A stretch of 55,144 bases of DNA, taken from contig JASGUU010000042.1 in NCBI GenBank assembly GCA_030057555.1, forward strand, positions 1 to 55,144. The letters are read 5' to 3'. The DNA is from Bacillota bacterium (GTDB lineage Bacteria > Bacillota > Clostridia > Saccharofermentanales > Fastidiosipilaceae). Position numbers and translations under genes: made by a program. The notes beneath the pieces were generated by a model that had not been told where the DNA came from, made no database searches, and saw only the letters and a program-made list of their open reading frames with translations. Numbering within the stretch: position 1 is the stretch's first letter; each line of letters opens with the position of its first letter. This document shows, one piece after another, positions 6,299-34,868 of this stretch.

Positions 6299-6441
6299 TG
6301 ACCATAATAAGGTCTTATCCAAAAGGGGATTTGGATTCCCGCCTATCTTGACCACAAAAGGCCCGTTTCTGGTCAGGATTGAGAGAAATCCAAAAGGGAA
6401 TTTGGAAAACTCCCCATCTTGACCACAAAAGGCCCGTTCCG
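6299..6441. repeat. Hairpin repeat array R1 (family A, 71-bp period, 2 units)
   Basis: Two tandem units between the convergent pheT and ktrB genes. Unit 2 (6371-6424) begins GGTCAGG and ends CTTGACC; its centre is ATCCAAA-AGGGAA-TTTGGA. Unit 1 (about 6299-6353) has a diverged 5' end but the same centre, ATCCAAA/TTTGGAT. The units are separated and followed by a 17-nt linker, ACAAAAGGCCCGTTTCT (6354-6370; variant at 6425-6441). Each unit folds into one long imperfect hairpin closed by GGTCA/TGACC. On the reverse strand the units match array R4 at 34.7 kb. No ORF is supported. Confidence 0.9.
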
Positions 6442-6494
6442 GCCACCGGTTGGGCTCTCTCCGCCCGTCAGCCCGACACCCGCCAGACCACCCG

Positions 6495-7979
6495 TCAGCC
6501 CACGTAGGTCCGCCCCTCCGGCCACACGATGCTGCTGTGCTGCGGGCGGCGCTGAGCGAGCCCCATCGCGAACGACGCGGGACCCACGCGTCCCAGAAAC
6601 ATGCAGGCAATCAGCACGATGTGCGAGAGCGGCTGCAGGGCGGAAGTCGGCGCCGATGTTACACCAACCGTGCCAAAGGCTGAGGCCACTTCATAGAGCA
6701 GATCAATCACCCGGAAGCGGTCGGCCCGGATCGCAGGCTCCTCGATGATGGCCAGCAGGAAACTCGACACGCTGAAAATCGTGATCCCCATCAGGAAGAT
6801 CACGAGAGCCCGCTGGACCACCGCCCGCGGAATCGTGCGCCGCCGCAGCACCGTCTCCTCTCGCCCCCGTGCGTTGGCGATGGCGGCTGCGAAGATGACG
6901 GCGAGGGTCGTGTGCTTGATGCCACCGCCCGTCGACGCCGGTCCCGCACCGATGAACATCAGCATGACGCCCAGCAGCTTCGAGGCATCCGTGAGCCCCG
7001 TCTGATCAATGGAATTAAAGCCGGCCGTGCGCAGTGTCACCGACTGGAACCAGGCTGCGAAGGGCTGCTGCCAGCCGGGCAGTGTGCCCAGTCCCTGAGC
7101 ACCGTGGTTGTCATGTTCAAGCAGCCAGAAACAGACGAGCCCCAGGAGCGTCAGCAGCAGCGTCAGCCCCAGCACCAGCCGCGTATGAAAGCGCAGTTCG
7201 CCATGGCCCGCCTCCGCATCGCGCTCCCGCCCGCGCCCCAGCACCCGCCGCCATACATGGCGCAGCCGCCCGAGCAGATCCTCCCAGACCACGAAACCGA
7301 GACCCCCGGTGGCCAGCAGCAGACCGGTGGTGACCAGCACGACCGGGTCGTCGTTCCATGTTGTCAGCGAACTGAAAGGGCCGGAATAATCGCCCATCAG
7401 GTCGAAGCCCGCGTTGCAGAAGGCGGAAATGCTCTGGAATACTCCGCGCCGGAGCGCCGCCGCGAGGGGCATGCGCAGCGAGAAGCGCCAGACCAGCAGG
7501 ATGGCCCCCAGAAGCTCCGTCCCGGCCGTGAACTGCACGATGCGCCAGACGAGTCTGCGGCTGTCCGCAAAGCGCTCCGAACCCATCGACTCCTGTACCG
7601 CCAGCATCGAGCGCATGCCGAGGCGCCGCCCCGTGGCCAGCAGGAAAAACGACGTAATCGTCACCAGTCCCAGCCCGCCTGCCTGAATCAGCATGATGAT
7701 CACGAGCTGTCCGAAGCCCGTCCAGTGCGTTGCCGTGTCGACCACGATCAGACCCGTCACACAGACACAGGAGGTAGCGGTAAAGAGGGCCGGCAGATAG
7801 CCGATGGAGATGCCGCTGCGGGAGGCCACCGGCAAAGTCAAAAGCAGGCTCCCGGCCAGAATCAAAAGCGCGAAGCTGAGCACAATGGTTCTGGTCGAAC
7901 TGTTTGCGATCCACTGCAGCAGGCGGTGCAGCCGTCCCTGCCGCCCGCCTGCGGGCGTCTCACGCCTCGCCGCCGTCAT
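6495..7979 (-). CDS. ktrB: Potassium uptake channel subunit, TrkH/KtrB family
   Basis: 494 aa integral membrane protein of the TrkH/KtrB superfamily. It has four M1-P-M2 repeats whose pore loops are visible: TATSCVCVTGLIVVD (P1), FQSISAFCNAGFDL (P2), FQSVTLRTAGFNSID (P3) and ASAFGTVGVTSAPTS (P4), each with the selectivity glycine. It forms a dimeric K+ (often Na+-coupled) channel gated by a cytoplasmic RCK ring. Its ATG overlaps the stop of the upstream RCK gene by 4 nt (ATGA), implying translational coupling. The length is nearer KtrB (about 450) than E. coli TrkH, with an N-terminal basic extension of about 25 residues. Confidence 0.93.
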   Translation of the reverse strand: MTAARRETPAGGRQGRLHRLLQWIANSSTRTIVLSFALLILAGSLLLTLPVASRSGISIGYLPALFTATSCVCVTGLIVVDTATHWTGFGQLVIIMLIQAGGLGLVTITSFFLLATGRRLGMRSMLAVQESMGSERFADSRRLVWRIVQFTAGTELLGAILLVWRFSLRMPLAAALRRGVFQSISAFCNAGFDLMGDYSGPFSSLTTWNDDPVVLVTTGLLLATGGLGFVVWEDLLGRLRHVWRRVLGRGRERDAEAGHGELRFHTRLVLGLTLLLTLLGLVCFWLLEHDNHGAQGLGTLPGWQQPFAAWFQSVTLRTAGFNSIDQTGLTDASKLLGVMLMFIGAGPASTGGGIKHTTLAVIFAAAIANARGREETVLRRRTIPRAVVQRALVIFLMGITIFSVSSFLLAIIEEPAIRADRFRVIDLLYEVASAFGTVGVTSAPTSALQPLSHIVLIACMFLGRVGPASFAMGLAQRRPQHSSIVWPEGRTYVG

Positions 7980-8677
7980 CCGCGCCGCCCGCCACGGCCC
8001 GTCGGCCGGATCAGCTGCGCCATGATGGCATCGTAGTCCGTCTCATCGCAGACCATCAGCATGCGGTCGCCGGCCGCCATCACGAGGTCGCCCGTCGGCA
8101 TCACGACACGTCCGTCCGTCCGCGTCACCAGCACCACCCGGCTCTCGGCCGGGAAACGGTGTTCGCTGAGGCTGCGCCCCACCGCCTCCGAGCCCGCGGA
8201 GAGCACGAACTCCACGATGGTCTTTGTGTTTTCGGGAATGCTGTAGGTCACCCGCAGCCCCTCATGCTCGATCTCCTGATCGATGGCCGCCGCGATGATC
8301 TCGGCGCTTGAGAAGACCTTGGCAATCCCCAGCCGCTCGAAGACCCCGCGGTTTTTCGGGTTGTTGATCTTGGCCATGATGGTCTTGACGCCGAAGGCAT
8401 GGCGCGCGAGCTGGCAGGCCATCAGGTTGTGCTCGTCGCGCCCGGTCAGCGCCACGAAGAGATCCACACCCGCGCAGCCCGCCTCCTCAAGCACCAGGCG
8501 GTTCGTGCCATCGCCCAGCACGACGCAGACGCCCAACTCATCCGCCATACGCTGCGCCACCGTGGCATTCTGCTCGATCACCGTGACCTGGTCGTGGACA
8601 ATGGGATTCGCCGACTGGATCAGCTGGCGAACGAGGTAGTAGGCGACTTTATCGCCGCCAATCAACATCAGGCGCAT
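7976..8677 (-). CDS. RCK-domain potassium channel regulator with degenerate nucleotide loop
   Basis: 233 aa TrkA/KtrA-type protein: RCK_N Rossmann domain (1-130) and RCK_C domain (about 145-225). The nucleotide-binding turn reads LIGGDKVAYYLV instead of the usual GxGxxG, while the rest (VIEQNATVAQRMADELG, VLGDGTNRLVLEEAG, LTGRDEHNLMACQLA, VKTIMAKINNPKN) is well conserved. It probably binds a ligand differently from its partner at 8681, or acts as the non-catalytic half of a hetero-ring. Shine-Dalgarno AGGGGAG precedes the ATG. It lies 3 nt after the other RCK gene and overlaps ktrB. Confidence 0.9.
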   Translation of the reverse strand: MRLMLIGGDKVAYYLVRQLIQSANPIVHDQVTVIEQNATVAQRMADELGVCVVLGDGTNRLVLEEAGCAGVDLFVALTGRDEHNLMACQLARHAFGVKTIMAKINNPKNRGVFERLGIAKVFSSAEIIAAAIDQEIEHEGLRVTYSIPENTKTIVEFVLSAGSEAVGRSLSEHRFPAESRVVLVTRTDGRVVMPTGDLVMAAGDRMLMVCDETDYDAIMAQLIRPTGRGGRRG

Positions 8678-8680
8678 GGT

Positions 8681-9307
8681 CTACAGCTCCCCTGCCGCAA
8701 TATGCATCAGGATCAGGCGGTCGCCCGACTCGACATGAGCGGCGTCAAAGTCGTCCGGCGGCAGCAGCACGCCGGCACGCACACAGCCGAGCAGAACCGC
8801 CGTTCCCCGGCGCACGACGGCGAGGGCCTCCCGCGCCTCTCGGCAGCCGGCCACGGCCAGCTCCTGGAAGCGCACCGCATGCCCGAAGAGTGTATAGGCC
8901 ACACTGTCCGGCCGTGCACCCAGTTCCTGCAGCATGCGTTCGACGACGATTTCCGTGCCCGACACGGTGTGAAAGTTCAGTTCCCGCAGTGTGGCGGCAT
9001 TCCAGGGCGTATACGAGCGCACCAGCACCCGCGGCACCTGGAACAGGGATCTCGCGATCTCGGCCGCCATCACGTTCATGTTCTCGCTCGGCGTACAGCA
9101 GCAGACCGCGTCCGCTGTCTCGATGCCACCCCGGCGCAGCACCTCCTGGTCGATCGGCACTCCGGCGATCGTAACGCAGTCGAGATCCGCGACGGACTCC
9201 AGCAGCCTGGCATCCTCGTCGATGACGACGACATCATGCTCGAGCCGGACGAGCTCATGTGCCAGTGTCGCACCGACACGGCCGCAGCCAATAACAATGA
9301 CCTGCAT
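8681..9307 (-). CDS. ktrA: RCK-domain potassium channel regulator (TrkA/KtrA type)
   Basis: 208 aa, first of two RCK proteins in the operon. It has a canonical dinucleotide loop (IGCGRVGATLAHEL, residues 5-18), an acidic ribose-binding segment (VVVIDEDARLLE) and a C-terminal RCK_C domain (about 130-205). Gates the K+ channel in response to ATP/ADP or NAD(H) in the family. It follows the RNA methyltransferase gene by 3 nt and precedes the second RCK gene by 3 nt, so all four genes are one transcript. Confidence 0.9.
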   Translation of the reverse strand: MQVIVIGCGRVGATLAHELVRLEHDVVVIDEDARLLESVADLDCVTIAGVPIDQEVLRRGGIETADAVCCCTPSENMNVMAAEIARSLFQVPRVLVRSYTPWNAATLRELNFHTVSGTEIVVERMLQELGARPDSVAYTLFGHAVRFQELAVAGCREAREALAVVRRGTAVLLGCVRAGVLLPPDDFDAAHVESGDRLILMHIAAGEL

Positions 9308-9310
9308 CCG

Positions 9311-10171
9311 TTATCCTCCGCGCCTGCAGCGCAGTTCCCAGACGATAATAGCCCCGGCAAGCGCCACATTGAGTGACTCGGCGCCGCCGGGCATCGGTAT
9401 TGTAATCCTGCGCCGGGCGGCGTCAAGTGTCCCGGGATCGAGGCCGTTTGCCTCATTGCCCAGCAGCAGGGCGAGAGCTTCGTCTTTGGCAAAGCCCATC
9501 TCCCCACCGAGCGGCTCCCCGCCCTCCGGAACCGCAGCCACCGTCGTCCAGCCGAGTTCCGCGAGCAGCGGCCAGATCTCCCCGTGCCGGATATCCCCCC
9601 TCTGTCTGCTGCGCAGCCGGACAACCGGCAGCTGCCAGAGCGCGCCCATCGAGGCCCGTGCCACCTTCGCCGACCAGGGGTCCGCCGAATCCCCGACGAC
9701 GAGGACGCCCGTGCAGGCGAGCGCCGCCGCCAGCCGGATCAGGGTGCCGACATTACCAGGATCCTGTACATCCTCGAGCACCAGCAGGCAGGGCGAGGGC
9801 AACCCCTCCGGCGCTCCCAGCCCCGCTGCCCGCAGTCCGCAGACGGTGGCCTCCGGCTCCGGCGGCCGATCGAGGACGAGCAGCACGCCCTGACTCGTCT
9901 CCGTCGTCGATAGCGCCGCGAAAACATCGTCCGCGAGCACCGCCGTCCCGCACACGGGATCCCGCCAGCGTGCATCCTTTGCCGCCGTCTCCGAGAGTAC
10001 AAGCAGCCGTGGCTCGGTCAGCGGCAGCAGCGTCTCCACGAGACGCAGTCCCTCGGCGGGAAACGAAGCGGCGAAGCGCCCGCTGCGTCCCATGCGCAGC
10101 AGATCCCGCACCAGCGGGTTGCGCCGCGAGCGTATGACGGGTGGGACGAATGAGGCGTTTGTGTCTTTCAT
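9311..10171 (-). CDS. SpoU/TrmH-family RNA 2'-O-methyltransferase
   Basis: About 286 aa. SPOUT enzymes transfer a methyl group from SAM to the 2'-OH of a ribose in rRNA or tRNA. The N-terminal substrate-binding domain starts at VIRSRRNPLVRDLLRM. The SPOUT domain shows all three motifs: LVLEDVQDPGNVGTLIRLA (motif 1), LLLGNEANGLD (motif 2) and ITIPMPGGAESLNVALAGAIIVWEL (motif 3, split here by its length). This is the RlmB/TsnR-like architecture. The start is uncertain: ATG at 10171 is preferred, a GTG at 10192 is possible. First gene of the operon with ktrA and ktrB. In other bacteria a SpoU gene often precedes pheST; here pheST lies nearby but convergent. Confidence 0.9.
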   Translation of the reverse strand: MKDTNASFVPPVIRSRRNPLVRDLLRMGRSGRFAASFPAEGLRLVETLLPLTEPRLLVLSETAAKDARWRDPVCGTAVLADDVFAALSTTETSQGVLLVLDRPPEPEATVCGLRAAGLGAPEGLPSPCLLVLEDVQDPGNVGTLIRLAAALACTGVLVVGDSADPWSAKVARASMGALWQLPVVRLRSRQRGDIRHGEIWPLLAELGWTTVAAVPEGGEPLGGEMGFAKDEALALLLGNEANGLDPGTLDAARRRITIPMPGGAESLNVALAGAIIVWELRCRRGG

Positions 10172-10318
10172 GATCCAATGATAGCCGAACACGGCGCTGC
10201 GGCCCGTCCAGCTTCCTGTAAAATAACGTATCCGCCAATATCGCAGTAACGCCGGCCGGAGATACTGTCATGAAAGCGTCAGCCGGACGAACCGACTGCC
10301 GCGACTGCCGCGGTTGAC

Positions 10319-10348
10319 TTGACGCCACGCAGCAGCGAGCCGGATAAT
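10319..10348 (+). promoter_or_regulatory. Promoter of the aconitase-citrate synthase operon
   Basis: TTGACG (10319-10324), an 18-nt spacer and GATAAT (10343-10348), 35 nt before the aconitase ATG. An overlapping TTGACT at 10314 is an alternative -35. The aconitase Shine-Dalgarno is TAGGAGAA. Confidence 0.65.
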
Positions 10349-10383
10349 AATATGTTCATAAACCTAACGCTAGGAGAACCGAC

Positions 10384-12330
10384 ATGGGCCTGACACTGAG
10401 CCAGAAAATCATCCGCGACCATCTGCTGACCGGTGACATGATCCCGGGACAGGAGATCGGCATCCGCATTGACCAGACCCTGACACAGGATTCGACCGGC
10501 ACGATGGCCTATCTGCAGTTTGAGGCGCTGGGCCTCGATCGCGTGCAGACCGAGCTCTCGGTGGCCTATGTGGATCACAACATGCTGCAGGCGAGCTTCG
10601 AGTCCGCCGATGACCACCTGTATCTGCAGTCGGTGGCCGCGCGCTATGGCATTCGCTTCTCGCGCCCCGGCAACGGCATCTGTCATCAGGTGCACTATGA
10701 GCGCTTTGCCATTCCCGGCAAAACTCTGCTCGGCTCCGACAGCCACACTCCGACTGCGGGTGGCCTCGGCATGCTCGCGATCGGTGCCGGCGGCCTCGAT
10801 GTCGCCGTCGCGATGGGCGGCGGCGCCTACTATACCGCCATGCCGCGCATGGTCCGGGTGCGTCTGGAGGGACGCCTCAGGGGCTGGGCCTCGGCAAAGG
10901 ACATCATTCTCGAGGTGCTGCGCCGCCTGACGGTGAAGGGCGGGGTGGGGAAGATCATCGAATACAGTGGTCCGGGCCTGGCCCATCTCTCGATCCCGGA
11001 ACGCGCGACGATCACAAACATGGGCGCGGAGCTCGGCGCCACCACCTCGATTTTCCCGAGCGACGAAGTTACCCGTGACTTCATGGCCGCCCAGGGGCGG
11101 GGCGGGGACTGGGTGCGGCTTGCCGCCGATCCCGACGCTGTCTATGACGAGGAATATGTCATTCAGCTTGATGAGGTCGAGCCGCTTGTGGCCTGGCCGC
11201 ACAGCCCCGACAGTGTGCACACAGTCGCCGAGACGGCCCGCCGGCGGATCCGGGTCGATCAGGTGACGATAGGCTCCTGCACGAACTCCTCTCTCGCTGA
11301 CATGATGAAGGTGGCGGCGATGCTGCGCGGCCGCACCATCGCGCCGCATGTCTCGCTTGTCATCGGGCCGGGCTCAAAGCAGGTCCTCAACATGATTGCC
11401 CGGAACGGCGCTCTCGCCGACATGATTGCTGCCGGTGCCCGCATTCTGGAGGCGGGCTGCGGCCCCTGCATCGGCATGGGCCAGGCTCCGCCGACCAACG
11501 GCGTCTCGGTGCGCACCATCAACCGCAACTTCCAGGGCCGCAGCGGCACGGCGTCGGCCTCGGTCTATCTGGTCAGCCCGGAGACGGCGGTGGCCACGGC
11601 GCTCATGGGCTATCTCGCCGATCCGGCGGAACTGGACATGGAAGTGCCCGTGGCGGAGCAGCCCGGAACCTATCAGCTGAACGACAACATGATCATCTTG
11701 CCGCCGGAAGATGGCAGCGGGGTCGAAATTCTGCGCGGTCCCAATATCAAGCCGCTGCCGCCGCGCGAACCGCTGACGGATCCGCTCGCGGGCGAGGTCC
11801 TGATCAAGCTCGGCGACAACATCACCACCGACCATATCATGCCCTCGAATGCGAGCCTGCTGCCCTATCGCTCGAATGTGCCCCATCTGGCGAACTACTG
11901 CCTGACTCCCTGTGATCCGGAATTCCCGGCCCGGGCGCGGGAGAAGGGTGGCGGCATCATCGTCGCCGGCCAGAACTACGGCCAGGGATCAAGCCGCGAG
12001 CATGCCGCGCTGGCTCCGGTGGAGCTGGGGGTGAGGGCGGTCGTGGCGCAGGGTTTTGCACGCATTCATCAGGCCAATCTCATCAACAACGGCATCCTGC
12101 CGCTGACACTGGTAAATGCCGCTGATTATGAGGACATCGAACAGGGCGATGCACTCGTGCTCGAGGACAGCCGCGGGCAGGTCCGACGTGCGGTTGACGG
12201 TGGGAAGCTTGTTCTTCGCAATCTGACCCGCGGGCGGACATGTCTCTGCAGGCTTGAGATCAGTCCGCGCCAGCGCGACATGCTGCTGGCCGGCGGGCTG
12301 CTCGCCGATCTCGCGCAGTCGCGCCGCTGA
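10384..12330 (+). CDS. acn: Aconitate hydratase, short clostridial-type
   Basis: 648 aa, the shorter aconitase type (about 640 aa) of anaerobes rather than the roughly 900-aa AcnA. It interconverts citrate and isocitrate using a [4Fe-4S] cluster. Cluster ligands are visible as C299 (GSCTNSS) and C359/C362 (AGCGPCIG). LLGSDSHTPTAGGLGMLAIGAGG is split across the conserved substrate-binding region of domain 1, and the swivel domain (about 470-648) carries DNITTDHIMPS and NYGQGSSREHAA. It is followed by the citrate synthase gene after 19 nt, so both are expressed from the promoter at 10319. No isocitrate dehydrogenase follows. Confidence 0.95.
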   Translation: MGLTLSQKIIRDHLLTGDMIPGQEIGIRIDQTLTQDSTGTMAYLQFEALGLDRVQTELSVAYVDHNMLQASFESADDHLYLQSVAARYGIRFSRPGNGICHQVHYERFAIPGKTLLGSDSHTPTAGGLGMLAIGAGGLDVAVAMGGGAYYTAMPRMVRVRLEGRLRGWASAKDIILEVLRRLTVKGGVGKIIEYSGPGLAHLSIPERATITNMGAELGATTSIFPSDEVTRDFMAAQGRGGDWVRLAADPDAVYDEEYVIQLDEVEPLVAWPHSPDSVHTVAETARRRIRVDQVTIGSCTNSSLADMMKVAAMLRGRTIAPHVSLVIGPGSKQVLNMIARNGALADMIAAGARILEAGCGPCIGMGQAPPTNGVSVRTINRNFQGRSGTASASVYLVSPETAVATALMGYLADPAELDMEVPVAEQPGTYQLNDNMIILPPEDGSGVEILRGPNIKPLPPREPLTDPLAGEVLIKLGDNITTDHIMPSNASLLPYRSNVPHLANYCLTPCDPEFPARAREKGGGIIVAGQNYGQGSSREHAALAPVELGVRAVVAQGFARIHQANLINNGILPLTLVNAADYEDIEQGDALVLEDSRGQVRRAVDGGKLVLRNLTRGRTCLCRLEISPRQRDMLLAGGLLADLAQSRR

Positions 12331-12349
12331 GACAGGAGGTTGATTTATC

Positions 12350-13729: not shown

Positions 13730-13775
13730 GGAGCTGCGCAGCCGGTCAGCTGAGAGCAAACGATCCGTTATCAGA

Positions 13776-13804
13776 GGGGTGGAACTGCGGTGCCGCCCCT
13801 TTTT
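13776..13804 (+). terminator. Intrinsic terminator after gltA
   Basis: GGGGTGG (13776-13782) pairs with CCGCCCC (13793-13799), followed by TTTTT. It is 47 nt after the gltA stop and 24 nt before the first R2 repeat. Confidence 0.85.
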
Positions 13805-13827
13805 GCTGCTTGGCGTGCGAAGCAGGT

Positions 13828-14095
13828 GTGCAGTTTTTCAAGGTTCCGCACCGGAAAGCTGCGGAAGCTTGGAATTTTGCACGAAATGGCCCGGAAATGT
13901 GCAGTATTTCAAGGTTCCGCACCGGAAAGCTGCGGAAGCTTGAATTTTTGCACGAAATGGCCCGGAAATGTGCAGTATTTCAAGGTTCCGCACCGGAAAG
14001 CTGCGGAAGCTTGAAATTTCGCACGAAATGGCCCGGAAATGTGCAGTTTTTCAAGGTTCCGCACCGGAAAGCTGCGGAAGCTTCAGATTTTGCAC
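13828..14095. repeat. Hairpin repeat array R2 (family B, exact 71-bp period, 4 units)
   Basis: Four 55-nt units at 13828-13882, 13899-13953, 13970-14024 and 14041-14095, separated by three identical 16-nt linkers (GAAATGGCCCGGAAAT). Each unit begins GTGCAG and ends TTGCAC/CGCAC. Nested inverted arms are visible: GTGCA/TGCAC, CAAG/CTTG and TTCCGCA/TGCGGAA around a CCGGAAAGC loop. Sequence differences between units cluster between the arms, while arm bases stay paired. The period is not a multiple of three and the reading frame rotates, so it is not coding. Confidence 0.93.
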
Positions 14096-14167
14096 ACCTG
14101 AGCTTCCGCGTGTCGCTGCAGCAGCTGTTTATGATTATGTTCACACCTGCGGTTTGATGAAAAACAG

Positions 14168-14255
14168 TATAATCGCAGAGAATTTGACAAAAACACGCAA
14201 AACCCTCTCGGCACCCCGACACAGCGGCAGGCAACGCCTCCGGAATCGCTATAAT
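14168..14255 (+). promoter_or_regulatory. Candidate activator-dependent promoter region of the rhamnoside block
   Basis: Two perfect -10 hexamers, TATAAT at 14168-14173 and 14250-14255, lie upstream of the first TIM-barrel gene. Neither has a recognisable -35 at 16-18 nt. A TTGACA at 14184 is not correctly spaced to either. This pattern is usual for promoters needing an activator such as the AraC protein encoded at 18630. Inference only. From 14096 to 14408 I see no gene. Confidence 0.4.
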
Positions 14256-14408
14256 GACATCGTTTATATGTTAAGAATATTTATAAATGTGCATGAGATG
14301 CGTTTAGGGGTCTGTCCCATGCGTTCGGGAATGGCTCTCAGCCCGCTTCGATATGCACACAAAGGGAAGCGGCTTCCTGATTTCAGGACTGAATGGGGGG
14401 CAGAAGCG

Positions 14409-16153: not shown

Positions 16154-16184
16154 CGCCGCCACGAAACGAACAGGAGAACACGCC

Positions 16185-20735: not shown

Positions 20736-20745
20736 TCGGATCCAT

Positions 20746-23818: not shown

Positions 23819-25087
23819 ATGATGACAGAAAAGGAACAGGCTGCGATCTTCGCCCATGCCAGGAAACGCTATGAGGCCATCGGTGTGGATGTGGAGGCCG
23901 CGCTCGAGCGCCTGGCGGAGACGCCGATTTCCATTCACTGCTGGCAGGGCGATGATGTCCGTGGCTTCGAGATGGGGAGCGGAGAACTCGACGGCGGCAT
24001 CCAGGTGACGGGCTCGCATCCGGGGGCGGCCAGGACGCCCGCGGAGCTGATGGCGGATTTCCGGGAGGCGATCGCGCGCATTCCGGGACCCAAGCGCATC
24101 AACCTGCATGCGATCTACGCGGTTGTCGATCCCGACGATCCCGTGGGACGTGATGCCCTGCGGCCAAGGGACTTCGCGCCGTGGGTCGACTTCGCGCGCG
24201 ATAACGGGCTTGGCATCGACTTCAATCCGACGCTGTTCTCGAGTCCTCACATGCGTGACGGGCTCTCGCTCTCAAGCCCGGATGAGGCGACACGGCAGTA
24301 CTGGATCCGCCACTGTCAGGCGTCGCGGCGCATTGCGGCGTGGATTGCCGGGCAGCTGGGCGATGACGTACTCTGCAACATCTGGATTCCCGATGGTCTG
24401 AAGGATATTCCCGGTGATCGTAGCGGTCCGCGTGAACGCCTCGCCGACAGTCTGGACCAGATATTCGCGGAACCCCTGGACGGTGTGCTGGATTCGGTGG
24501 AGTCGAAGGTCTTCGGCATCGGCCTCGAGTCCTACACGGTCGGCAGCCATGACTTCTATCTGGGCTATGCACTGTCACGGCCGGGCGTCCTCGTCCTGAT
24601 CGATTCCGGCCACTTCCATCCGACCGAGAACGTGGCGGACAAGCTCTCGTCGCTGCTGCTTTTCTTCGACGAGATTCCGATGCACGTGACGCGCTCGGTA
24701 CGCTGGGATTCGGACCATGTGCTGGTTGTGGACAACGAACTGCTCGGTATCGCGCGTGAGATCGTGCGCTGCCACGCCCTCGACCGCGTGCGCATCGGGC
24801 TCGACTTCTTCGATGGTTCGGTGAACCGTGTAGCGGCCTGGATTTCGGGAACGCGCGCGATGCAGAAGGCGCTGCTGCGTGCCCTGCTCGAACCGGCCGG
24901 GCGGCTGCGGGAGTATCAGGACACGGCGCGCTGGACGGAGCTGCTGGTGGAGCAGGACGCCCTGTTCAGTCTGCCCTTTGGCGCTGTCTGGGATGAGTAC
25001 TGCCGTCGTCAGGGCGTGCCGGATGACTGGTCCTGGCTCGCCGATATTATGGCCTATGAGGAGGGCGTCATAGCGGCGCGCGGCTAG
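23819..25087 (+). CDS. rhaA: L-rhamnose isomerase
   Basis: 422 aa, normal length for RhaA. Converts L-rhamnose to L-rhamnulose with two divalent metals. Diagnostic segments: SIHCWQGDDVRGFE near residue 45, SSPHMRDGLSLSSPD, LESYTVGSHDFYLGYALS and LIDSGHFHPTENVADK with D262, H265 and H267. Two adjacent ATGs (23819 and 23822) both fit; AAAGGAG lies just upstream. Second gene of the rhaBA unit; followed by hairpin array R3. Confidence 0.95.
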   Translation: MMTEKEQAAIFAHARKRYEAIGVDVEAALERLAETPISIHCWQGDDVRGFEMGSGELDGGIQVTGSHPGAARTPAELMADFREAIARIPGPKRINLHAIYAVVDPDDPVGRDALRPRDFAPWVDFARDNGLGIDFNPTLFSSPHMRDGLSLSSPDEATRQYWIRHCQASRRIAAWIAGQLGDDVLCNIWIPDGLKDIPGDRSGPRERLADSLDQIFAEPLDGVLDSVESKVFGIGLESYTVGSHDFYLGYALSRPGVLVLIDSGHFHPTENVADKLSSLLLFFDEIPMHVTRSVRWDSDHVLVVDNELLGIAREIVRCHALDRVRIGLDFFDGSVNRVAAWISGTRAMQKALLRALLEPAGRLREYQDTARWTELLVEQDALFSLPFGAVWDEYCRRQGVPDDWSWLADIMAYEEGVIAARG

Positions 25088-25159
25088 CGCTGGCATCGGG
25101 GCGGCGGGCAGCTGGCGCGGGTGTCGGGGCGGCGGGGGCTGCAGAATGGCTCAGACGGT

Positions 25160-25283
25160 GGCCAAAAAATCCGCTGGTGCCCCGAAATCGGGCAGGAATG
25201 GAAATTTTGTCCAGAAAGTGGCCAAAAAATCCGCTGGTGCCCCGAAATCGGGCAGGAGCGGAAAATTTGTCCAAAAAGTGGCC
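25160..25283. repeat. Hairpin repeat array R3 (family C, 60-bp period, 2 units plus a partial)
   Basis: Two 53-nt units (25160-25212 and 25220-25272) separated by 7-nt linkers AGAAAGT and AAAAAGT, then the first bases of a third unit (GGCC at 25280). Each unit has an apical hairpin TGCCC/GGGCA and a lower stem formed by the A-rich GGCCAAAA side against TTTTGTCC or TTTGTCC. Unit differences are few. It starts 72 nt after the rhaA stop and ends 112 nt before the rhamnosidase gene. Confidence 0.88.
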
Positions 25284-29057: not shown

Positions 29058-29293
29058 CGTGACATATCTGGCCAGCATCTGAAAAGAAGCCGGCAGGCCT
29101 TTGCTTTCGTTGCATGATGTCAGCAGGGAGGATAGAGCTTCAGCCAGCATCGGCATCTTTCCTGTCCATGCACTCCAATTGAGACGAAATCCCTCGCTAA
29201 ATCGATTTGAGTGCGGTTTCTCGGAGGCTCCCCGGCCGCATGCTCTTGTCACTTCAAGCGCCAATCCAGTTATATCCAGCATGCCAACTTTTG

Positions 29294-29331
29294 GAGTTGT
29301 GTCACCTTTTCCTGACACAACTCGCGTTTTT
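29294..29331 (+). terminator. Strong intrinsic terminator downstream of the rhamnoside block
   Basis: GAGTTGTGTCA (29294-29304) pairs perfectly over 11 bp with TGACACAACTC (29313-29323), then GCGTTTTT. It is 237 nt after the UroD-like stop. The stretch 29058-29293 and 29332-29471 holds no gene I can support. Confidence 0.8.
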
Positions 29332-29471
29332 GTCATCTTTAGAACACAGGACTTCTGTCATTGCTTCAACTTCGCTGTGGAGAACTGCCAGAGCAGCTGA
29401 CAGCAGCACATTTGACCCGTTTCCGGCTGTCCGGACAGAAGCGTCCTGCCGGTGTCCACATCCTGAGACAC

Positions 29472-29497
29472 AAAAAGGAACGGCCGTGGGCCGTTCC
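29472..29497 (-). terminator. Terminator of the MarR gene
   Basis: On the minus strand GGAACGGCC pairs with GGCCGTTCC (29489-29497 with 29477-29485) over a 3-nt loop, followed by TTTTTG (complement of 29472-29476). About 30 nt after the marR stop. Confidence 0.8.
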
Positions 29498-29528
29498 CCC
29501 TGCTGCTGCCAGCTGTTGTGGCCGATGA

Positions 29529-30311
29529 CTAGGTTGTTACCAGACTGCGGCGAAAACCCAGTCCACGGCCCAGACCCTGCCCACCTCCCAGGCCGAGTCC
29601 ACGACCCTGGCCCAGTCCTCTGGCGAGTCCCGGCCCGGCACCGAGTCCGCGACCGACTCTGCCACCACGTCCACGGGTTCCGAGGCCCGCACCACCGCCG
29701 CGACCCCGGCCACCTCCGGCCCGGCCGGCTCCGCCCGCGCGGCCACCACCGCCGGCACGGCCGCCGCCCCCACCGCCGCCGCGACGGCGCGTGCCGTCAC
29801 AGAAGGGACCGCCGGCACCCCTGCCCAGTCCTCTGCCGAGCCCGTCGCCGCGGCCGCGGCCGTAGCGATAGACCGGCCAGTCCTCGAGCTCGCCGCCCGG
29901 ATTCAGCACGGCCATCAGCTTCGCCGCGCTCTCCAGAAAGCTCGACTGCTCATCCGCAGACAGGGCCTCGTCGTACAGCTCCTGCTCATCCGCCCGCAGC
30001 ATGCCGACGGCCTTGATGTGCTCGCGTCCGGCAGGGGTCAGGCTGACCACGGTCACCCGCCGATCCTCCTCGGATACCCGCCGCTCGATCCAGCCGCGCA
30101 GCTCCAGCCGGCTGAGCATGCCGCTCACCGACGAGGGACGCAGATCCAGCCGGTCGGCGAGCTCATAGGCCGTGGCATCGCCATCAGCCAGTGCCAGCAG
30201 CACCTGCTGCCCGGTCTGGGGGCCGCCGGCTCCCTGCTGTGCCCGCCGCAGCGCCCGCGACAGCCGCATGATGGCGCTCGTGATTTCGTTCTTCTTAAAT
30301 GTATTCGACAT
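29529..30311 (-). CDS. MarR-family regulator with a long Gly/Arg-rich C-terminal tail
   Basis: 260 aa. Residues 1-145 are a normal winged-helix MarR protein (DNA-reading helix around LDLRPSSVSGMLSRLE, wing around RRVSEEDRRVTVVSLTPAG). From about residue 151 to 255 the protein is almost only Gly, Arg, Ala and Leu, with many RG and GRG steps and one short PFCDGTRRR island. Typical MarR proteins end near 145-160 aa. The tail could bind nucleic acid or metal, or be a disordered oligomerisation region. The coding DNA for the tail is repetitive and GC-rich but keeps frame and ends in a proper stop and terminator. RBS AAAGGA precedes the ATG. Likely autoregulated through the palindrome at 30369. Confidence 0.88.
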   Translation of the reverse strand: MSNTFKKNEITSAIMRLSRALRRAQQGAGGPQTGQQVLLALADGDATAYELADRLDLRPSSVSGMLSRLELRGWIERRVSEEDRRVTVVSLTPAGREHIKAVGMLRADEQELYDEALSADEQSSFLESAAKLMAVLNPGGELEDWPVYRYGRGRGDGLGRGLGRGAGGPFCDGTRRRGGGGGGGRAGGGGRAGGAGRAGGGRGRGGGAGLGTRGRGGRVGRGLGAGPGLARGLGQGRGLGLGGGQGLGRGLGFRRSLVTT

Positions 30312-30359
30312 AGTTATGAATCCTTTCCAGCGGTCTATTACCGCTTGTGTTCTGGCTCC

Positions 30360-30388
30360 ATATTATTAGTTAGCTAACGAAATAACAA
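30360..30388 (-). promoter_or_regulatory. marR promoter with palindromic operator
   Basis: On the minus strand: -35 TTGTTA (30388-30383), 17-nt spacer, -10 TAATAT (30365-30360). The spacer contains the perfect palindrome GTTAGCTAAC (30369-30378), a MarR-like operator placed to block RNA polymerase. Autoregulation is inferred. Confidence 0.7.
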
Positions 30389-30415
30389 GCTCCAATCGTA
30401 AACAAATGGTAAACA

Positions 30416-31192
30416 CTAGAACAGCTCGGCGAGCAGAATGTAATAGCGCACCCGCTCCGGATCCGGAGCGAGTCCCAGTTCCTGAAACAACCCGTTCTCG
30501 AGCTCCGCGAGTCCCGCCCGGCCGCCATGGTTGTAACGCAGTGAACGCAGGCACAGGGCCAGATCCAGCCAGCGATCCCCGCGCCCGCCGCGGCCGAGGT
30601 CAATGAAGTCGCTGATCCGCTTGTCATCGGCCAGAATATTAGGCAGGCAGCAGTCACCGTGGACGAAGCCGGGCTCATAGGGTGGCTGGTTTCATAGAGC
30701 CAGTGCAGCAGCGCCTCCGGCGATGGAAGCCACCCGGGCAGAAAGTCTCCGCCCCGGCCTCTTCGCTCGAAACCAGACCCGCTTCGACCCGCCGCCGGGC
30801 TTCAGCCAGTTTCCCCGCAGTTCCGGCGTCCAACGGGCAGCCCCGGCCTCGACTCCGTCCAGCAGCCGCAGAGCCTCCGTCAGCCGCGCCACGAGATAGC
30901 GGGTATTGTCCATGATCCCAGGCTCGGCGAGCATGCGTCCCGGCAGCCGCCCACTGAGCCAGGCGAGCAGCTCGCGCTCACGCCGGCTTTCTTCATCTGC
31001 GACCTGCACCTTGAGCACAAGTGACTCGTAGAGACAGATAAACGAACCGGTCCGGCCGACCATGTCGAATTCATAGCCATCATGAGCGGGGAGGAGGGAG
31101 GCGATGGACAGCGGCAGCTGCAGGCCGGAATCCCGTAGCGGCGTCCTCCCATTTTGCGTGGCTGAATCAGATGAAACAGGAACGGAAGACAT
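30416..31192 (-). pseudogene. aph(3')-like aminoglycoside phosphotransferase, frameshifted
   Basis: Read across frames this is a nearly full-length APH(3')-family kinase: an N-lobe with EFDMVGRTGSFICLYESLVLKVQ, a helical region with TEALRLLDGVEAG, then in other frames LAEARRRVEAGLVSSEEAG and LPSPEALLHWLYETSHP, then YEPGFVHGDCCLPNIL, SDFIDLGRGGRGDRWLDLAL and an end at the stop 30416. The catalytic HGD-x4-N and IDxGR motifs are intact. The frame changes three times (near 30825, 30742 and 30678), each consistent with loss of one base, and the last returns to the first frame. A strong RBS (AGGAGGAGG) precedes the ATG at 31192. It may be a recent pseudogene or a sequencing artefact. Divergence from known resistance genes cannot be judged here. 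Confidence 0.85.
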
Positions 31193-31209
31193 CACGGGAC
31201 CTCCTCCTG

Positions 31210-31244
31210 AAAAAACGAGCGACCGGCCGCGGGACCGATCGCTC
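31210..31244 (-). terminator. Terminator after tRNA-Glu
   Basis: On the minus strand GAGCGA (31244-31239) with a GC-rich middle pairs to TCGCTC (31222-31217), then GTTTTTT (complement of 31210-31216). It separates the tRNA from the aph-like gene. Confidence 0.8.
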
Positions 31245-31249
31245 ACAGG

Positions 31250-31324
31250 TGGTGACCCTAGGGAGAATCGAACTCCCGATTCCGCCTTGAGAGGGCGGCG
31301 TCTTGACCGCTTGACCATAGGGCC
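31250..31324 (-). tRNA. tRNA-Glu (anticodon CUC)
   Basis: 75 nt with encoded CCA. The acceptor starts GGCCCTA and pairs with TAGGGTC before ACCA. The anticodon stem CCGCC/GGCGG holds the loop CTCTCAA, giving anticodon CTC. The T-arm is GGGAG-TTCGATT-CTCCC. The pattern GGnCCn...TCAAGCGGT is typical of bacterial tRNA-Glu. It stands alone, with its own promoter and terminator. Confidence 0.97.
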
Positions 31325-31337
31325 GACAAGCTTGGCT

Positions 31338-31366
31338 ATCTTATCAGAGGAAGATCGGCTGTGCAA
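31338..31366 (-). promoter_or_regulatory. Promoter of tRNA-Glu
   Basis: On the minus strand TTGCAC (31366-31361), 17-nt spacer, TAAGAT (31343-31338). The tRNA 5' end lies 13 nt downstream of the -10. Confidence 0.75.
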
Positions 31367-31422
31367 GCTGTTTTTTATCACCCATTCACACGACGGTTCC
31401 GGCGTTCATCCGGCCGGGCACG

Positions 31423-32223
31423 TCACTCTCCGCGCCCGCACACCCGCAGCAGCTCAGCCTGATGCAGCGTCAGCAGGTCGCGGAGGAAGGGGGCGAGTCT
31501 CCCTCGATGCATGTTTACGAAGCAGGCAAAGTCCGCCTCCGCAGCCCGCAGCACGAGCAGCTCTTCCAGCTCGATGTCGCCGCCCGCACGCCGCCAGTCC
31601 GCCTTCTGTCGGTCATACTGCGACAGAACAGCGGCCGCGGTCCAGGGTATCCGCCACACGAGCAGTGCCGTCAACGAGGCGAGATGGAGCGGACGCGCCA
31701 TCCAGGCAAAGCCTGCCAGCTCCCCCGCCGACCCGAGCAGCGGTCCCAGCTCCTCAAGGAGCTCGCGCCGCGCGGTGCGCTCCGGCACATAGCATCCCTC
31801 GACGAAGTCGGCGCGCTCGCTGGATCCCCCGATGAACTTGATTTCGCCACTGTCGGTTTTCATCGTGGCCATGCGCCCAAAAATCAGGCAGCCGTCCTGC
31901 GTCAGAGGCAGGACAGAAGCTGCGAGGGAATGGCAGGCCCGCTGACCCACCATGAGCTCCTGTCTGGTCGCAAGATAATGGGCATACTCCGTCTCCACGA
32001 CCCTGAAGTGCCCGCAGCCCTGCCGGAAGGCCGCCTGCAGCCCGCCCTCGCTTTTTTCGAGCACCGTAAACAGCGCGCCGTTATAGTTGAGCGGCTTCTC
32101 CCTGGCATGCTCGCGCCAGACGGTATCGAGGCGGTTCCGTTCTTCCGCTGTAAAGGCAAAACGCCCTTCCTGCAGGCAAAACTGGAAATCCGGCTCCAGT
32201 GCGAACGGTGAGCTGTACTTCAT
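31423..32223 (-). CDS. Nudix-like hydrolase with an imperfect Nudix box
   Basis: 266 aa. The central region resembles the Nudix fold: FIGGSSERADFVEG followed by ARRELLEELGPLL, with R153-E154-L-L-E157-E158-L-G160 fitting the REUxEExGU half. The upstream half (G-x5-E-x7) is not at standard spacing, so a short insertion is likely between the two halves. The N-terminal 100 residues are helical and not recognised. Nudix enzymes cleave nucleoside diphosphates linked to another group; the substrate here is unknown. Start chosen at ATG 32223, with AAGGGAA upstream, rather than the longer frame at 32274. Single gene, divergent from rpiB. Confidence 0.75.
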   Translation of the reverse strand: MKYSSPFALEPDFQFCLQEGRFAFTAEERNRLDTVWREHAREKPLNYNGALFTVLEKSEGGLQAAFRQGCGHFRVVETEYAHYLATRQELMVGQRACHSLAASVLPLTQDGCLIFGRMATMKTDSGEIKFIGGSSERADFVEGCYVPERTARRELLEELGPLLGSAGELAGFAWMARPLHLASLTALLVWRIPWTAAAVLSQYDRQKADWRRAGGDIELEELLVLRAAEADFACFVNMHRGRLAPFLRDLLTLHQAELLRVCGRGE

Positions 32224-32282
32224 CAGCTGTTCCCTTTCAACCCAGGCATCCGAAACCATGGACGCGGATTGCAACTGAATCT

Positions 32283-32293
32283 ATTGTTACAAT
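32283..32293. promoter_or_regulatory. Small palindrome in the Nudix-rpiB divergent region
   Basis: ATTGTTACAAT (5-bp arms around one base) overlaps a possible -10 (TACAAT, 32288-32293) for rpiB. It is a weak operator candidate. Confidence 0.3.
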
Positions 32294-32368
32294 ATCGGTA
32301 CAGGAAGACTTTCCTGCCCGGCGCACGTCAACCGCACCGGCCACTGGCGATTACGGAGGAACGTACAT

Positions 32369-32848
32369 ATGATCGTATCACTGGGCTGCGACCATGCTGG
32401 TGTAGATTTGCGCGCGAGCCTGCGCGACCAGCTGATGGCGCGTGGCTACCGCGTCATATCCCATGGTCCCGAAGACGAAACATCCGTTGACTACCCCGAT
32501 GTGGCCATCGTTGTCTGCCGCCAGGTTCTCGACGGTGAGGCGGACCTCGGTATCCTCGTCTGTGGCACCGGCCTAGGCATGAGCATCGCCGCGAACAAGG
32601 TCCCCGGCATCCGTGCTGCCCTCCTGAGCGACTGTTATTCGGCCGTGAAGGCCCGCACCCATAACGACGCCAATGTCATCACTCTCGGCGGCCGCACTCT
32701 CGGTCCCGAGCTTGCCTGGCAGATCGTGACGAGCTTTCTCGACAACGAGTTTACCGGCGGCCGTCATCAGGTCCGCATTGACAAGCTAAGTGCCATCGAG
32801 TCCCATTACATGAATCCCGGAGCGGCAGAAGTCTCTACTGACTGCTGA
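32369..32848 (+). CDS. rpiB: Ribose-5-phosphate isomerase B family (RpiB/LacAB)
   Basis: 159 aa. Interconverts ribose-5-phosphate and ribulose-5-phosphate. CDHAGVDLR (D8-H9) at the N-terminus, the catalytic Cys C65 in LVCGTGLGMSIAANK, and RTHNDANVITLGGR (H98) are all present. LacAB or other aldose-ketose isomerase activities share these motifs, so the exact sugar is not certain. RBS ACGGAGGAACG precedes ATG. Single gene. Confidence 0.93.
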   Translation: MIVSLGCDHAGVDLRASLRDQLMARGYRVISHGPEDETSVDYPDVAIVVCRQVLDGEADLGILVCGTGLGMSIAANKVPGIRAALLSDCYSAVKARTHNDANVITLGGRTLGPELAWQIVTSFLDNEFTGGRHQVRIDKLSAIESHYMNPGAAEVSTDC

Positions 32849-32882
32849 GTCTGCAGGTGTTTTCAGGACACAGCAGCAAAGG

Positions 32883-32902
32883 GGCCGGCTCATGAGCCGG
32901 CC
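32883..32902. terminator. Perfect 20-bp palindrome between convergent genes
   Basis: GGCCGGCTCATGAGCCGGCC is fully self-complementary and lies between the ends of rpiB and the ADP-ribosylglycohydrolase gene. It is probably a bidirectional transcript end, although neither side has a good T-run. Confidence 0.45.
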
Positions 32903-32920
32903 TCCCGCTGTCAAGTCACA

Positions 32921-34564
32921 TTACCAGGCCTCGAAACCTGCTTCAGGATCCGTTTCCAGGCGGGGCGGGGACGGCAGGTCCGGGAGCCACTGGGGCTGGG
33001 ATGGATCCTCATAACAGCGGATCAGGCGCAGCCGGACGGGGCAGCTCGTATGCCGCCCGACGAGGCCGATGTCGAGCATGATGTCGGCCATGCCGTCGTT
33101 GAAGGATTCGTCAAACGTAAAGTTCAGCGTCACCTCGGCCCGCGAGCCCATGTTCGTGTTCAGCGGTCGCCTCACCCGGCATCCCTCGCGGCAGCTGACA
33201 CCCTTCGGTGTCCAGATGCACATGTCCATCCAGAACTGCTGCCTGAGTGAGTTGTTGTCGCGCAGCGAGATGCGGATGGACTTCCCCCGGACAGGATAGA
33301 AGAAGGGCCCGTCCTCGCCATAGTCGATTTCGGCCACGAAGGGCACCGCTTCGACCCACTGCGTGGTCCAGCCGGCGGCCTGCTTCTCCGCCGCGGTCAC
33401 TGACTTGTCGAAGCCGGAGCCGTTGATCAGGGGCACATAGTCCTCAGCGGGCGGCGCCAGCAGCTCGTCGGAGCCGGGCATCCGGATAAAGAAGCTGCCG
33501 TCGAGATCATGTCCGCACTCCTCGGGGCCGAGCCAGCCGGGCAGGTTCAGGAAGACCCGCCGCCCGAGCTCCGCACAGGTTTTGGGGATCCAGATCCCGC
33601 CCGAGGTCAGGTTGATGCACTTGGTCACGATCCTGTCGCCCAGCGGCTCCTGCCACTCGGCCGGAATTCCGGACGCTCCGCTGATGATCCCGAGCAGCGC
33701 TCCGAGTGTCGCCGCCGTGCAGTCGGTATCCTCGCCGGCGTTCACGGCCGCCAGCAGACTTTTGCCAAAATCACCCCCGCCGTGATACCAGCCCAGGACC
33801 GCATAGGCCAGATTCTGTGGCGCATCGAAGCCCGCCGCGCCCGGCTCGAGTCCGTGGTCCTCTGCCGACGAGACCGACAGAGGGCGCCCCTGGATCCCGA
33901 ACGAACCGGGTACCAGATCATGCACGCGCCGCCAGGTCTCCTCGAATGTCCGGCCCTCGGCCCAGTCGCTGCGCACCAGCGCCACCGCCGCGGCCAGCTG
34001 GCAGTCGGAGGGGATATAGCTGAGACCGATGTCAAGGAGTTTCTCACGGTCGCTCTCGACGAAGGCCGCCGCCTGCATGGCCGCCATGAAAACCTCGCCG
34101 TACACGCCCTCTTCCGCATGGTCGACAATTGCGTCCTCATAGGCGTAACGTGCCGCGAGGGCAGGCCTGCCGGGGCAGAGACAGGCCCAGAGCTCGGAGC
34201 GGATCCAGGCTCCGTTGCTGTCACGGTAGATGTTGTCGACATAGCCCGAAAACGGCGGCGCCAGGCCGGCCCGCAGGTTGGCTTTGCCGGTGCCATACTC
34301 CACCCAGTTCGGCGTAATGTAGCTGAGCCAGTACTCGCCCAGAATCGAGGCGTTCACCTGCCGCCCGTAGCGCTCCACGGCGTTCAGCCAGACCAGCTGC
34401 AGATCAAGGTCGTCGTTGGCCGGCGGGCCGGCACTGAGATCCTGTACGTAGCCCTTGACATCGAGCAGACCACGCGTGCATTCGAAGGGCTCGCCCAGCA
34501 CGCCGCCGATGTTTTTGCCTACCCAGCAGCCCATAATCTTGTCGATCAAAACGTCGCGCGTCAT
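32921..34564 (-). CDS. ADP-ribosylglycohydrolase-family protein with C-terminal beta domain
   Basis: 547 aa. The N-terminal about 330 residues are the DraG/ARH fold: GCWVGKNIGGVLGEPFE, the first metal cluster ANDDLDLQ (D51, D52, D54) and the second NAGEDTDCTAAT (D279, D281). Known members cut ADP-ribose from proteins or hydrolyse related N- or O-glycosides. The remaining about 210 residues look beta-rich and are not part of the classic 300-aa enzyme. No ADP-ribosyltransferase gene is near, so a nucleoside- or glycoside-hydrolase role is as likely as protein de-ADP-ribosylation. RBS GGAGGTG precedes the ATG. Cytoplasmic. Confidence 0.88.
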   Translation of the reverse strand: MTRDVLIDKIMGCWVGKNIGGVLGEPFECTRGLLDVKGYVQDLSAGPPANDDLDLQLVWLNAVERYGRQVNASILGEYWLSYITPNWVEYGTGKANLRAGLAPPFSGYVDNIYRDSNGAWIRSELWACLCPGRPALAARYAYEDAIVDHAEEGVYGEVFMAAMQAAAFVESDREKLLDIGLSYIPSDCQLAAAVALVRSDWAEGRTFEETWRRVHDLVPGSFGIQGRPLSVSSAEDHGLEPGAAGFDAPQNLAYAVLGWYHGGGDFGKSLLAAVNAGEDTDCTAATLGALLGIISGASGIPAEWQEPLGDRIVTKCINLTSGGIWIPKTCAELGRRVFLNLPGWLGPEECGHDLDGSFFIRMPGSDELLAPPAEDYVPLINGSGFDKSVTAAEKQAAGWTTQWVEAVPFVAEIDYGEDGPFFYPVRGKSIRISLRDNNSLRQQFWMDMCIWTPKGVSCREGCRVRRPLNTNMGSRAEVTLNFTFDESFNDGMADIMLDIGLVGRHTSCPVRLRLIRCYEDPSQPQWLPDLPSPPRLETDPEAGFEAW

Positions 34565-34650
34565 CGTGCACCTCCATGTGGAAATGTGGCTTCACCGGCC
34601 ATGCTCATCCCGTGTCATGATACTCTATGCCGTCGCGGCCATTCGCCGAG

Positions 34651-34868
34651 TTGACCAGAAACGGGTCACAAATGGTCAAGTTGGGGAGTTTTCCAAATTT
34701 CTTTTTGGATTCCTCGCGATCCTGACCAGAAACGGGGCACTCGTGGTCAAGTTGGGGAGAAATCCAAATCTTTTTTTGGATTACTCGCGATCCTGACCAG
34801 AAACAGTGCCCAAATGGTCAAGTCGGGGAGAAATCCAAATTTCTTTTGGATTCCTCGCGATCCTGACC
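34651..34868. repeat. Hairpin repeat array R4 (family A, 71-bp period, 3 units)
   Basis: Units at 34674-34727, 34745-34798 and 34816-34868, with a trailing end (TTGACC) of a fourth at 34651-34656. Linkers of 17 nt start AGAAAC (34657-34673, 34728-34744, 34799-34815). Each unit begins GGTCAAG, ends CCTGACC and has AATCC-AAA/TTTGGATT arms near the loop, making one long hairpin. This is the same family as R1 in the opposite window orientation. It begins 13 nt after the stop of the minus-strand GNAT gene and lies upstream of the ADP-ribosylglycohydrolase gene. Confidence 0.92.

Follow-up and report, generated by a model that had tools for sequence, protein, structure and literature searches.

Intergenic tandem arrays of imperfect palindromes, in several sequence families of one format, in a Fastidiosipilaceae genome

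The window analysed here, the whole 55,144-nt stretch of contig JASGUU010000042.1, comes from a Fastidiosipilaceae genome (G000) and carries four short tandem arrays of imperfect hairpins, R1 to R4. Beyond these lies a fifth site, a single hairpin that the first-pass annotation of this DNA had overlooked.

6293..6434 (-): R1, family-A array of 2 hairpins, the one at 6371-6424 intact and the outer one at 6300-6353 degraded, between pheT and the convergent trkH
13827..14096 (+): R2, family-B array of 4 hairpins, each 55 nt long and separated by 16-nt linkers, period 71, 3′ of the citrate synthase gene
25159..25273 (+): R3, family-C array of 2 hairpins, period 60, in the gap between the L-rhamnose isomerase and alpha-L-rhamnosidase genes
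29282..29335 (+): single family-F hairpin, GGAGTTGTGTCA...TGACACAACTC, DNA-folding z -3.7
34652..34870 (+): R4, family-A array of 3 hairpins (34674-34727, 34745-34798 and a third ending at 34870), period 71

The four arrays proposed in the first-pass annotation were borne out by whole-genome searches and, for R2, R4 and R3, by Tandem Repeats Finder (scores 489, 333 and 224), which did not list R1. The 5-bp closing ends GGTCA/TGACC and GTGCA/TGCAC were likewise confirmed, and the three hairpins of R4 are preceded by the terminal bases of a fourth. The view that the arrays are different sequences in one format holds for the format, which is common to the families, but R1 and R4 both belong to family A, in opposite orientations, leaving three families rather than four. 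Linkers starting (A)GAAA, described as a general feature, occur in 38 of 39 A arrays and in part of family B (7 of 23), but in 0 of 27 C arrays, a count that depends on the chosen hairpin boundaries, which cut R3's own GAAA.

By one gene model the distance from a gene 3′ end to the array is roughly 136 nt (R1), 98 nt (R2), 71 nt (R3) and 12 nt (R4), so that the reported placement within 170 nt of a 3′ end is correct for all four window arrays; genome-wide, however, it applies to 36 of 88. Hairpins that follow a gene end in four of four cases could act at the RNA level, terminating transcription or protecting mRNA. Group II intron ends adjoin family-A hairpins, which fits this reading, and some group II introns of this sort home to terminators. 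However, a terminator-like hairpin already stands between gene and array at R2 and, less clearly, at R1 (judged by eye), and free single-strand DNA folding, whose z reaches -6.1 in one R2 unit and -3.5 in an R4 unit, is weak for R1 (-1.3), another R4 unit (-1.4) and R3 (-0.8). Moreover, of the 88 arrays flanked on either side by a called gene, 25 lie between convergent, 41 between tandem and 22 between divergent genes under a crude gene model, with the same classes when the count was redone without barring genes that overlap arrays, and the divergent cases speak against action at the RNA level, which we regard as improbable.

G000 carries about a hundred short intergenic tandem arrays of imperfect palindromes, and called coding sequence was absent from 103 of 104 array places although the surrounding stretches are 72% coding. 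The families A, B, C, F and G, together with E, consist of a palindrome of ~53-77 nt and a short linker, repeated head to tail. In 92 stretches similar to the window's own units, beyond which further copies exist, we counted at least 144 A, 86 B and 103 C hairpins, partial ones included, at 41, 25 and 34 places, respectively. Whole-genome matches on both strands, query arrays included, numbered at least 112 for the R4 array, at least 62 for R2 and 71 for R3, with 40 of 89, 40 of 44 and 34 of 34 candidate regions scored, and the covariance-model search, with 150 scored candidates per genome, gives lower bounds. Restriction of the arrays to this assembly, a possibility that had been left standing, does not hold: G001, a sister species, has A, C, F and G, and G016, a genome from another family of the same order, has the related family E.

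Linkers resemble each other more inside one array than across arrays, with identities within and between arrays of 0.86 and 0.75 for A, 0.87 and 0.60 for B, and 0.74 and 0.48 for C. A test for CRISPR character failed, as the linkers are mostly 4, 16 or 17 nt long and alike inside an array rather than unique spacers. Homogenised linkers would also suit neutral satellite DNA, formed from any palindrome by local slippage with no mobility; copying is nevertheless needed to put one 54-nt sequence into dozens of unrelated places, and we hold this explanation to be very improbable. For the MITE-borne part of family A, described below, it is refuted by target duplications.

No double compensatory change was found in any predicted pair of A, B or C within G000, which counts against the reading of mobile repeats given below. 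In G001, apical stems vary on both sides, with CCAAA/TTTGG, GGCAA/TTGCC and ACAAA/TTTGT accounting for 340, 98 and 58 of 540 regex matches on both strands, which counts in its favour. Symmetric positions 7-49, 8-48, 25-31 and 27-29 of family B pair less than independent columns predict, keeping A.A/T.T or C.C/G.G. Selection against pairing was considered for these mirror mismatches, but flipping of the hairpin interior explains them too, an alternative that arises because the arms of family A share one pool of block alleles, swapped order included.

Many family-A loci have common flanks, and these define a MITE of ~0.4-0.9 kb with terminal inverted repeats GTGCACGTCA-N4-TGTCGGGA, ends GGGTGCACGTCA and a 9-bp target duplication. 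Inverted-repeat ends with at most 2 mismatches number 62 in G000, and the reversed control gave 0. Among 30 inverted-repeat pairs listed, two elements are double-listed, one 315-bp pair has no hairpin and one of 1054 bp is thought spurious. The 23 elements analysed span 0.37-0.82 kb, a range fixed by the filter used, and 17 of them have target duplications with at least 7 of 9 matching bases, whereas in 1000 shuffled pairings the mean was 1.98 and the maximum 7, the 9-bp length having been picked from a grid. MITE-borne hairpins number 1-5 per element, with single-hairpin copies at L277, L279 and L295. Both inverted repeats accompany 24 of 61 distinct A arrays, one accompanies 16 and none 17, while 4 lie near contig edges; at R1 and R4 the inverted repeat was absent within 420 nt at up to 4 mismatches. 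At the one locus compared in full, the G000 MITE is absent from G001 and the G001 MITE is absent from G000. Family A is thus supported as mobile at least in part. For B and C, where comparison of 17 and 20 loci, respectively, turned up neither a carrier nor a shared flank, we infer mobility from their dispersal.

The MITE-borne A arrays, and these arrays only, are a BOX-like composite of constant ends and variable internal tandem modules. Pneumococcal BOX (boxA-boxBn-boxC) is described as a small non-autonomous composite with predicted stem-loops and an internal module in a variable number of tandem copies, and in S. suis the boxB modules stay the same while the modules at the ends differ (PMC3049150). 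Here, by contrast, the module is a 54-nt palindrome in its own right, one genome holds several module families of this format, and for many arrays no end modules could be detected. BrickBuilt of Porphyromonas gingivalis is similarly a MITE with an internal minisatellite, described as always intergenic and present in 19 copies in one strain, but its repeat is 23 nt without spacers, as against a palindrome plus linker of 60-92 bp in the present arrays (PMC4596501). The repetitive hairpin elements of sponge mitochondria are described as also hairpin-forming and intergenic but are mitochondrial (PMC2800124).

We consider it reasonably probable that the arrays as a whole are non-autonomous mobile tandem palindromes, occurring as one copy or as arrays, and that they represent a new variant of the BOX/MITE/BIME kind. 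The MITE-borne A hairpin is an internal module of that element in 1 to 5 copies, in the way that boxB is in pneumococcal BOX, and arrays may enlarge and contract in place by tandem duplication or by slippage at self-complementary DNA. MITE copies would be moved by a transposase acting in trans. The MITE is short, with no gene called over the arrays, and inspection by eye of the ends listed for G000, an assembly split into 90 contigs, turned up no long element with these inverted repeats that could serve as an autonomous partner. The arrays that lack a MITE (B, C, and those of family A at R1 and R4) may have spread on another carrier or one since lost, or by recombining into hairpin sites already present; the latter would explain the replacement of one family by another at a single place.

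A different engine had been suggested by the first-pass annotation, which likened the arrays to REP elements copied by RAYT, a Y1 tyrosine transposase. REP/BIME elements are described as palindromes that are likewise numerous between genes, cluster in tandem with spacers particular to each cluster and keep their complementarity (PMC2817692), features matched here at more than 100 copies with array-specific linkers, and G001 holds one broken Y1_Tnp relic with 4 stops. However, the Y1_Tnp domain (PF01797) was found 0 times in G000 and in G016 as against 5 of 14 control genomes, no intact RAYT being found in G000, G001 or G016, and the present units are larger direct repeats, head to tail at constant spacing, whereas REP/BIME units are described as alternating (PMC2817692). 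The consensuses of A, B, C, F and G also lack a GTAG/GTGG head, although E in G016 starts GTAG. RAYT as the current engine in G000 and G016 is refuted unless the assemblies of these MAGs, 96% and 93% complete, miss its gene, and we give the RAYT explanation the least credence of all. A known principle, that of MITE or BOX elements whose internal tandem modules vary in number, accounts for some of what was observed.

The collections searched yielded no described relative of the arrays: the sole Rfam match above the gathering threshold over the window was tRNA-Glu, so that the arrays match no Rfam family, and there were 0 matches in phages for the R4 region, in plasmids for R2, R4 and R3, and in viral contigs for the A and C patterns. 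Searches with B and C covered G000, fetched G001 loci and the plasmid (R2, R3) and viral-contig (C) tests. Family A had no match in 10 genomes from other genera of the host's own family; a weak covariance-model match in G014 (L132) looks like coding sequence by eye and was taken as chance. The A-core pattern matched G000 and G016 only among 188 genomes of the order, a weak absence, as the pattern also misses the variant sequences of G001. The G016 array matched 1 of 10 genomes of its own family, that is, G016 alone. A scan of named genomes returned, among the matches listed, MAG JASGUW01 (MAG87_KBP); a single Halolactibacillus match (L169), about chance expectation, was set aside.

Comparison with G001 covered two syntenic stretches with five sites in the window (1.5-36.4 kb) and three in L309, a stretch chosen for its known C and B arrays; the fetched G001 loci had been selected for family A content. 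G001 carries hairpins at seven of the 8 hairpin sites, compared with 1 of 17 other gaps (Fisher p 1.3e-4), where 16 control gaps were judged by unbroken alignment of near-equal length and one, the occupied gap, by an end scan, and where L309 gap 5438-5611 was left out as inseparable from its neighbour. The sole unoccupied site is the L309 C array, of which only one flank is conserved. At 4 of the 7 occupied sites the hairpin family differs between the species. R3 has two hairpins in G000 and one diverged C-like hairpin at the orthologous G001 site, and the F site has one hairpin in G000 and at least 5 in G001, as an F array of 70-bp period on the side of the contig that faces that place. In G001 synteny breaks at R2, where A arrays lie on either side. 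At the compared sites the two species thus differ in copy number and even in family.

Shared occupancy beyond the expectation for random insertion could mean function or a preferred target. If function, the arrays would be candidate double-stranded sites for a DNA-bending or DNA-wrapping protein, kept at chosen intergenic places, with the format selected and the family interchangeable, as the four family differences among seven sites would allow. Periods also fit, falling mostly at 59-62, 69-72, 80-82 and 91-92 bp, in steps of roughly one helical turn (8 family-by-class values, p 0.0002); family E has periods of 69-71 and 80-81 in one genome, and G has 82 in G000 and mostly 91-92 in G001. These period classes were, however, chosen post hoc, and G001 also has spacings of 78, 84, 87-90 and 106-108. 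Gap length confounds the site sharing, which for gaps of at least 100 nt becomes 7 of 8 against 1 of 6 (p 0.026), and the change from B to G, families with similar-looking outer ends in their consensuses and with HMM cross-matches, makes up two of the four family differences. The species-specific MITE insertions and the lack of family-A matches in the 10 genomes of other genera weigh in the same direction, and we judge such a chromosomal function unlikely. More doubtful still is a reading in which fixed positions must carry a helically phased tandem palindrome with an exchangeable occupant, such that place, format and period are conserved but sequence is not; it would need a reader of DNA shape or phasing rather than sequence.

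One genus has at least five sequence families in one format, where bacterial repeats are usually described one sequence at a time, and from one sister species to the other both families and copy numbers turn over at intergenic places that the two have in common. This raises the questions of whether bacteria keep positions for palindromic DNA whatever its sequence and whether MITEs serve as nurseries for tandem arrays in which RAYT plays no part. It also carries a warning for assembly, as such genomes break in arrays: G001 contigs end in or near arrays at R1, R4, the F site and two L309 sites.

All four tandem hairpin arrays (R1 to R4) that the first-pass annotation had described in the window are present; R1 and R4, which it had taken for different sequences, are one 71-bp family in opposite orientations. 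We refer to this family as A, to that of R2 as B and to that of R3 as C, and a fifth hairpin site holds a single hairpin of a further family, F:
29282-29335, family-F hairpin.
The same families are dispersed through the genome that contains the window (G000; 90 contigs totalling 2.9 Mb), in which array searches, counting both strands, gave 112 matches for R4, 62 for R2 and 71 for R3. Profile searches of 92 merged stretches found, partial copies included, 144 A hairpins at 41 places, 86 B hairpins at 25 and 103 C hairpins at 34. No called gene is overlapped at 103 of 104 array places of families A, B, C, F and G, and less than half of the remaining place is, in stretches whose coding share is 72%. 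A short GC-rich 28-bp tandem repeat (25073-25136), directly after an L-rhamnose isomerase gene, adjoins R3, and L116, at positions 23004-23070 of contig C71, is a chimera with the left arm of family C and the right arm of family B.

The units consist of palindromes of 54 (A), 55 (B) and 56 nt (C), separated by linkers of mostly 17, 16 and 4 nt; spacing is 71 in 91/103 A pairs, 71-72 in 55/61 B pairs and 60 in 64/69 C pairs. Tandem Repeats Finder, applied to fetched stretches and unseeded by known units, added two families of palindromes: F, with a period of 70, and G, with one of 82 in G000 and of 91-92 in the sister species G001. G016, which belongs to the same order but to a different taxonomic family, carries family E, with a centre like that of A and periods of 69-71 and 80-81. 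Periods cluster mostly at 59-62, 69-72, 80-82 and 91-92, in steps of about one helical turn (p 0.0002, eight classes picked post hoc); given the off-cluster spacings also present in G001 (78, 84, 87-90 and 106-108), we consider this pattern suggestive. Among 118 distinct A hairpins, the outer and apical stems are paired in 92-100%, the blocks between them pair poorly, and the mismatched blocks of both arms belong to a single allele pool, found in either order. No double change at a predicted pair was seen within G000; G001 subfamilies differ by a double change in the apical stem, with CCAAA/TTTGG, GGCAA/TTGCC and ACAAA/TTTGT making up 496 of 540 regex matches (both strands counted). Folded as single-stranded DNA, the tested units of B, F, E and G, together with one of A, scored better than shuffles; R3, R1 and a further A unit did not clearly do so.

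A RAYT transposase had been proposed as the engine, and the searches speak against it: Y1_Tnp (PF01797) was detected in neither G000 nor G016, and G001 has just one fragment, interrupted by four stops, while 5 of 14 control genomes were positive. Among 188 genomes searched in the order, the A-core pattern matches two, G000 and G016 (G001 variants escape it), and no match was found with the family-A covariance model in 10 genomes from other genera of the same family, in phages with the R4 region, in plasmids with R2, R4 and R3, or in viral contigs with A and C patterns; an Rfam scan of the window likewise gave no relative.

Many A loci share flanking sequence outside the array, which was absent among the 17 B and 20 C loci compared; flanks of G001 F arrays appear, by eye, to be common among themselves. 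The A flanks constitute a MITE, a short non-autonomous transposon-like element, of roughly 0.4-0.9 kb with inverted repeats GTGCACGTCA-N4-TGTCGGGA (62 ends in G000) and 1-5 A hairpins within. A 9-bp target duplication, its length selected from a grid, matches at 7 or more of 9 positions in 17 of 23 MITEs (shuffles: mean 1.98, maximum 7; one base of slack each side in both). At a single locus, one MITE is present in G000 and not G001, and another in G001 and not G000. Within 420 nt of 61 distinct A arrays, both inverted repeats were found for 24, one for 16 and none for 17, R1 and R4 among the last, with 4 arrays near contig edges. The target sites of several MITEs (L288, L289, L294, L295, C69:63000 and C70:27213) resemble one another (TTCCATTTTGTCGA) and may themselves belong to a further dispersed repeat. 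That MITE-borne A arrays are mobile, non-autonomous tandem palindromes is well supported; for families B and C, and for the A arrays at R1 and R4, we infer the same.

G001 belongs to the same genus as G000 and is apparently the MAG named Bacillota bacterium MAG87_KBP; it carries at least 149 A hairpins by the covariance model, as well as C, F and G arrays; B is nearly absent from its loci fetched for family A (5 strand matches). Synteny was compared over two stretches, the window and L309, a G000 stretch chosen for known C and B arrays:
R1 site: A in G000; C arrays at both facing contig ends in G001.
R2 site: B in G000; a synteny break with A arrays on either side in G001.
R3 site: two C hairpins in G000; one diverged C-like hairpin in G001.
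F site: one hairpin in G000; at least five in G001.
R4 site: A in G000; A arrays at both facing contig ends in G001.
L309: of its three hairpin sites, two are filled in G001, both by G vs B in G000.
At the R2 site, the A arrays of G001 contigs C218 and C87 flank the interspecies breakpoint as if mediating rearrangement, and a different 20-bp tandem repeat (C203:1-145, L314) lies at a G001 contig end opposite an occupied site. Overall, 7/8 hairpin sites are occupied in G001, compared with 1/17 of the remaining gaps (length 40 nt or more; Fisher p 1.3e-4) and with 1/6 when control gaps are restricted to at least 100 nt (p 0.026). The family changed at 4 of the 7 occupied sites, two of these from B to G; as B and G have similar outer ends, exchange of an inner module is possible at those two. 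The oddity left is that sequence families swap while place and format persist. Target preference of mobile elements is the plainer cause, and a selected slot the bolder one.

Pneumococcal BOX (PMC3049150) and BrickBuilt (PMC4596501) elements resemble MITE-borne A arrays in having fixed ends and variable internal tandem modules, and BIMEs (PMC2817692) likewise form clusters with array-specific spacers, but no intact copy of the BIME transposase was found here. In literature covering few subscription journals, we recognised neither a description of these hairpin families nor a precedent for several palindrome families in one tandem format.

Family-A arrays seem to be group II intron targets, as intron 3′ ends (Rfam Intron_gpII; L014:36-120 and L022:40-124, the starts of G000 contigs C4 and C1) adjoin A hairpins; the end of L002 looks like an intron 5′ end, and intron bodies coincide with contig breaks. 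Some B hairpins contain a second, TGCATAAATATTCA-like palindrome nested in the loop, which gives them a period of about 152:
G000 contig C23, 11893-12326 (L107).
G000 contig C24, 11957-12163 (L106).
This insert recalls an arginine-repressor box.
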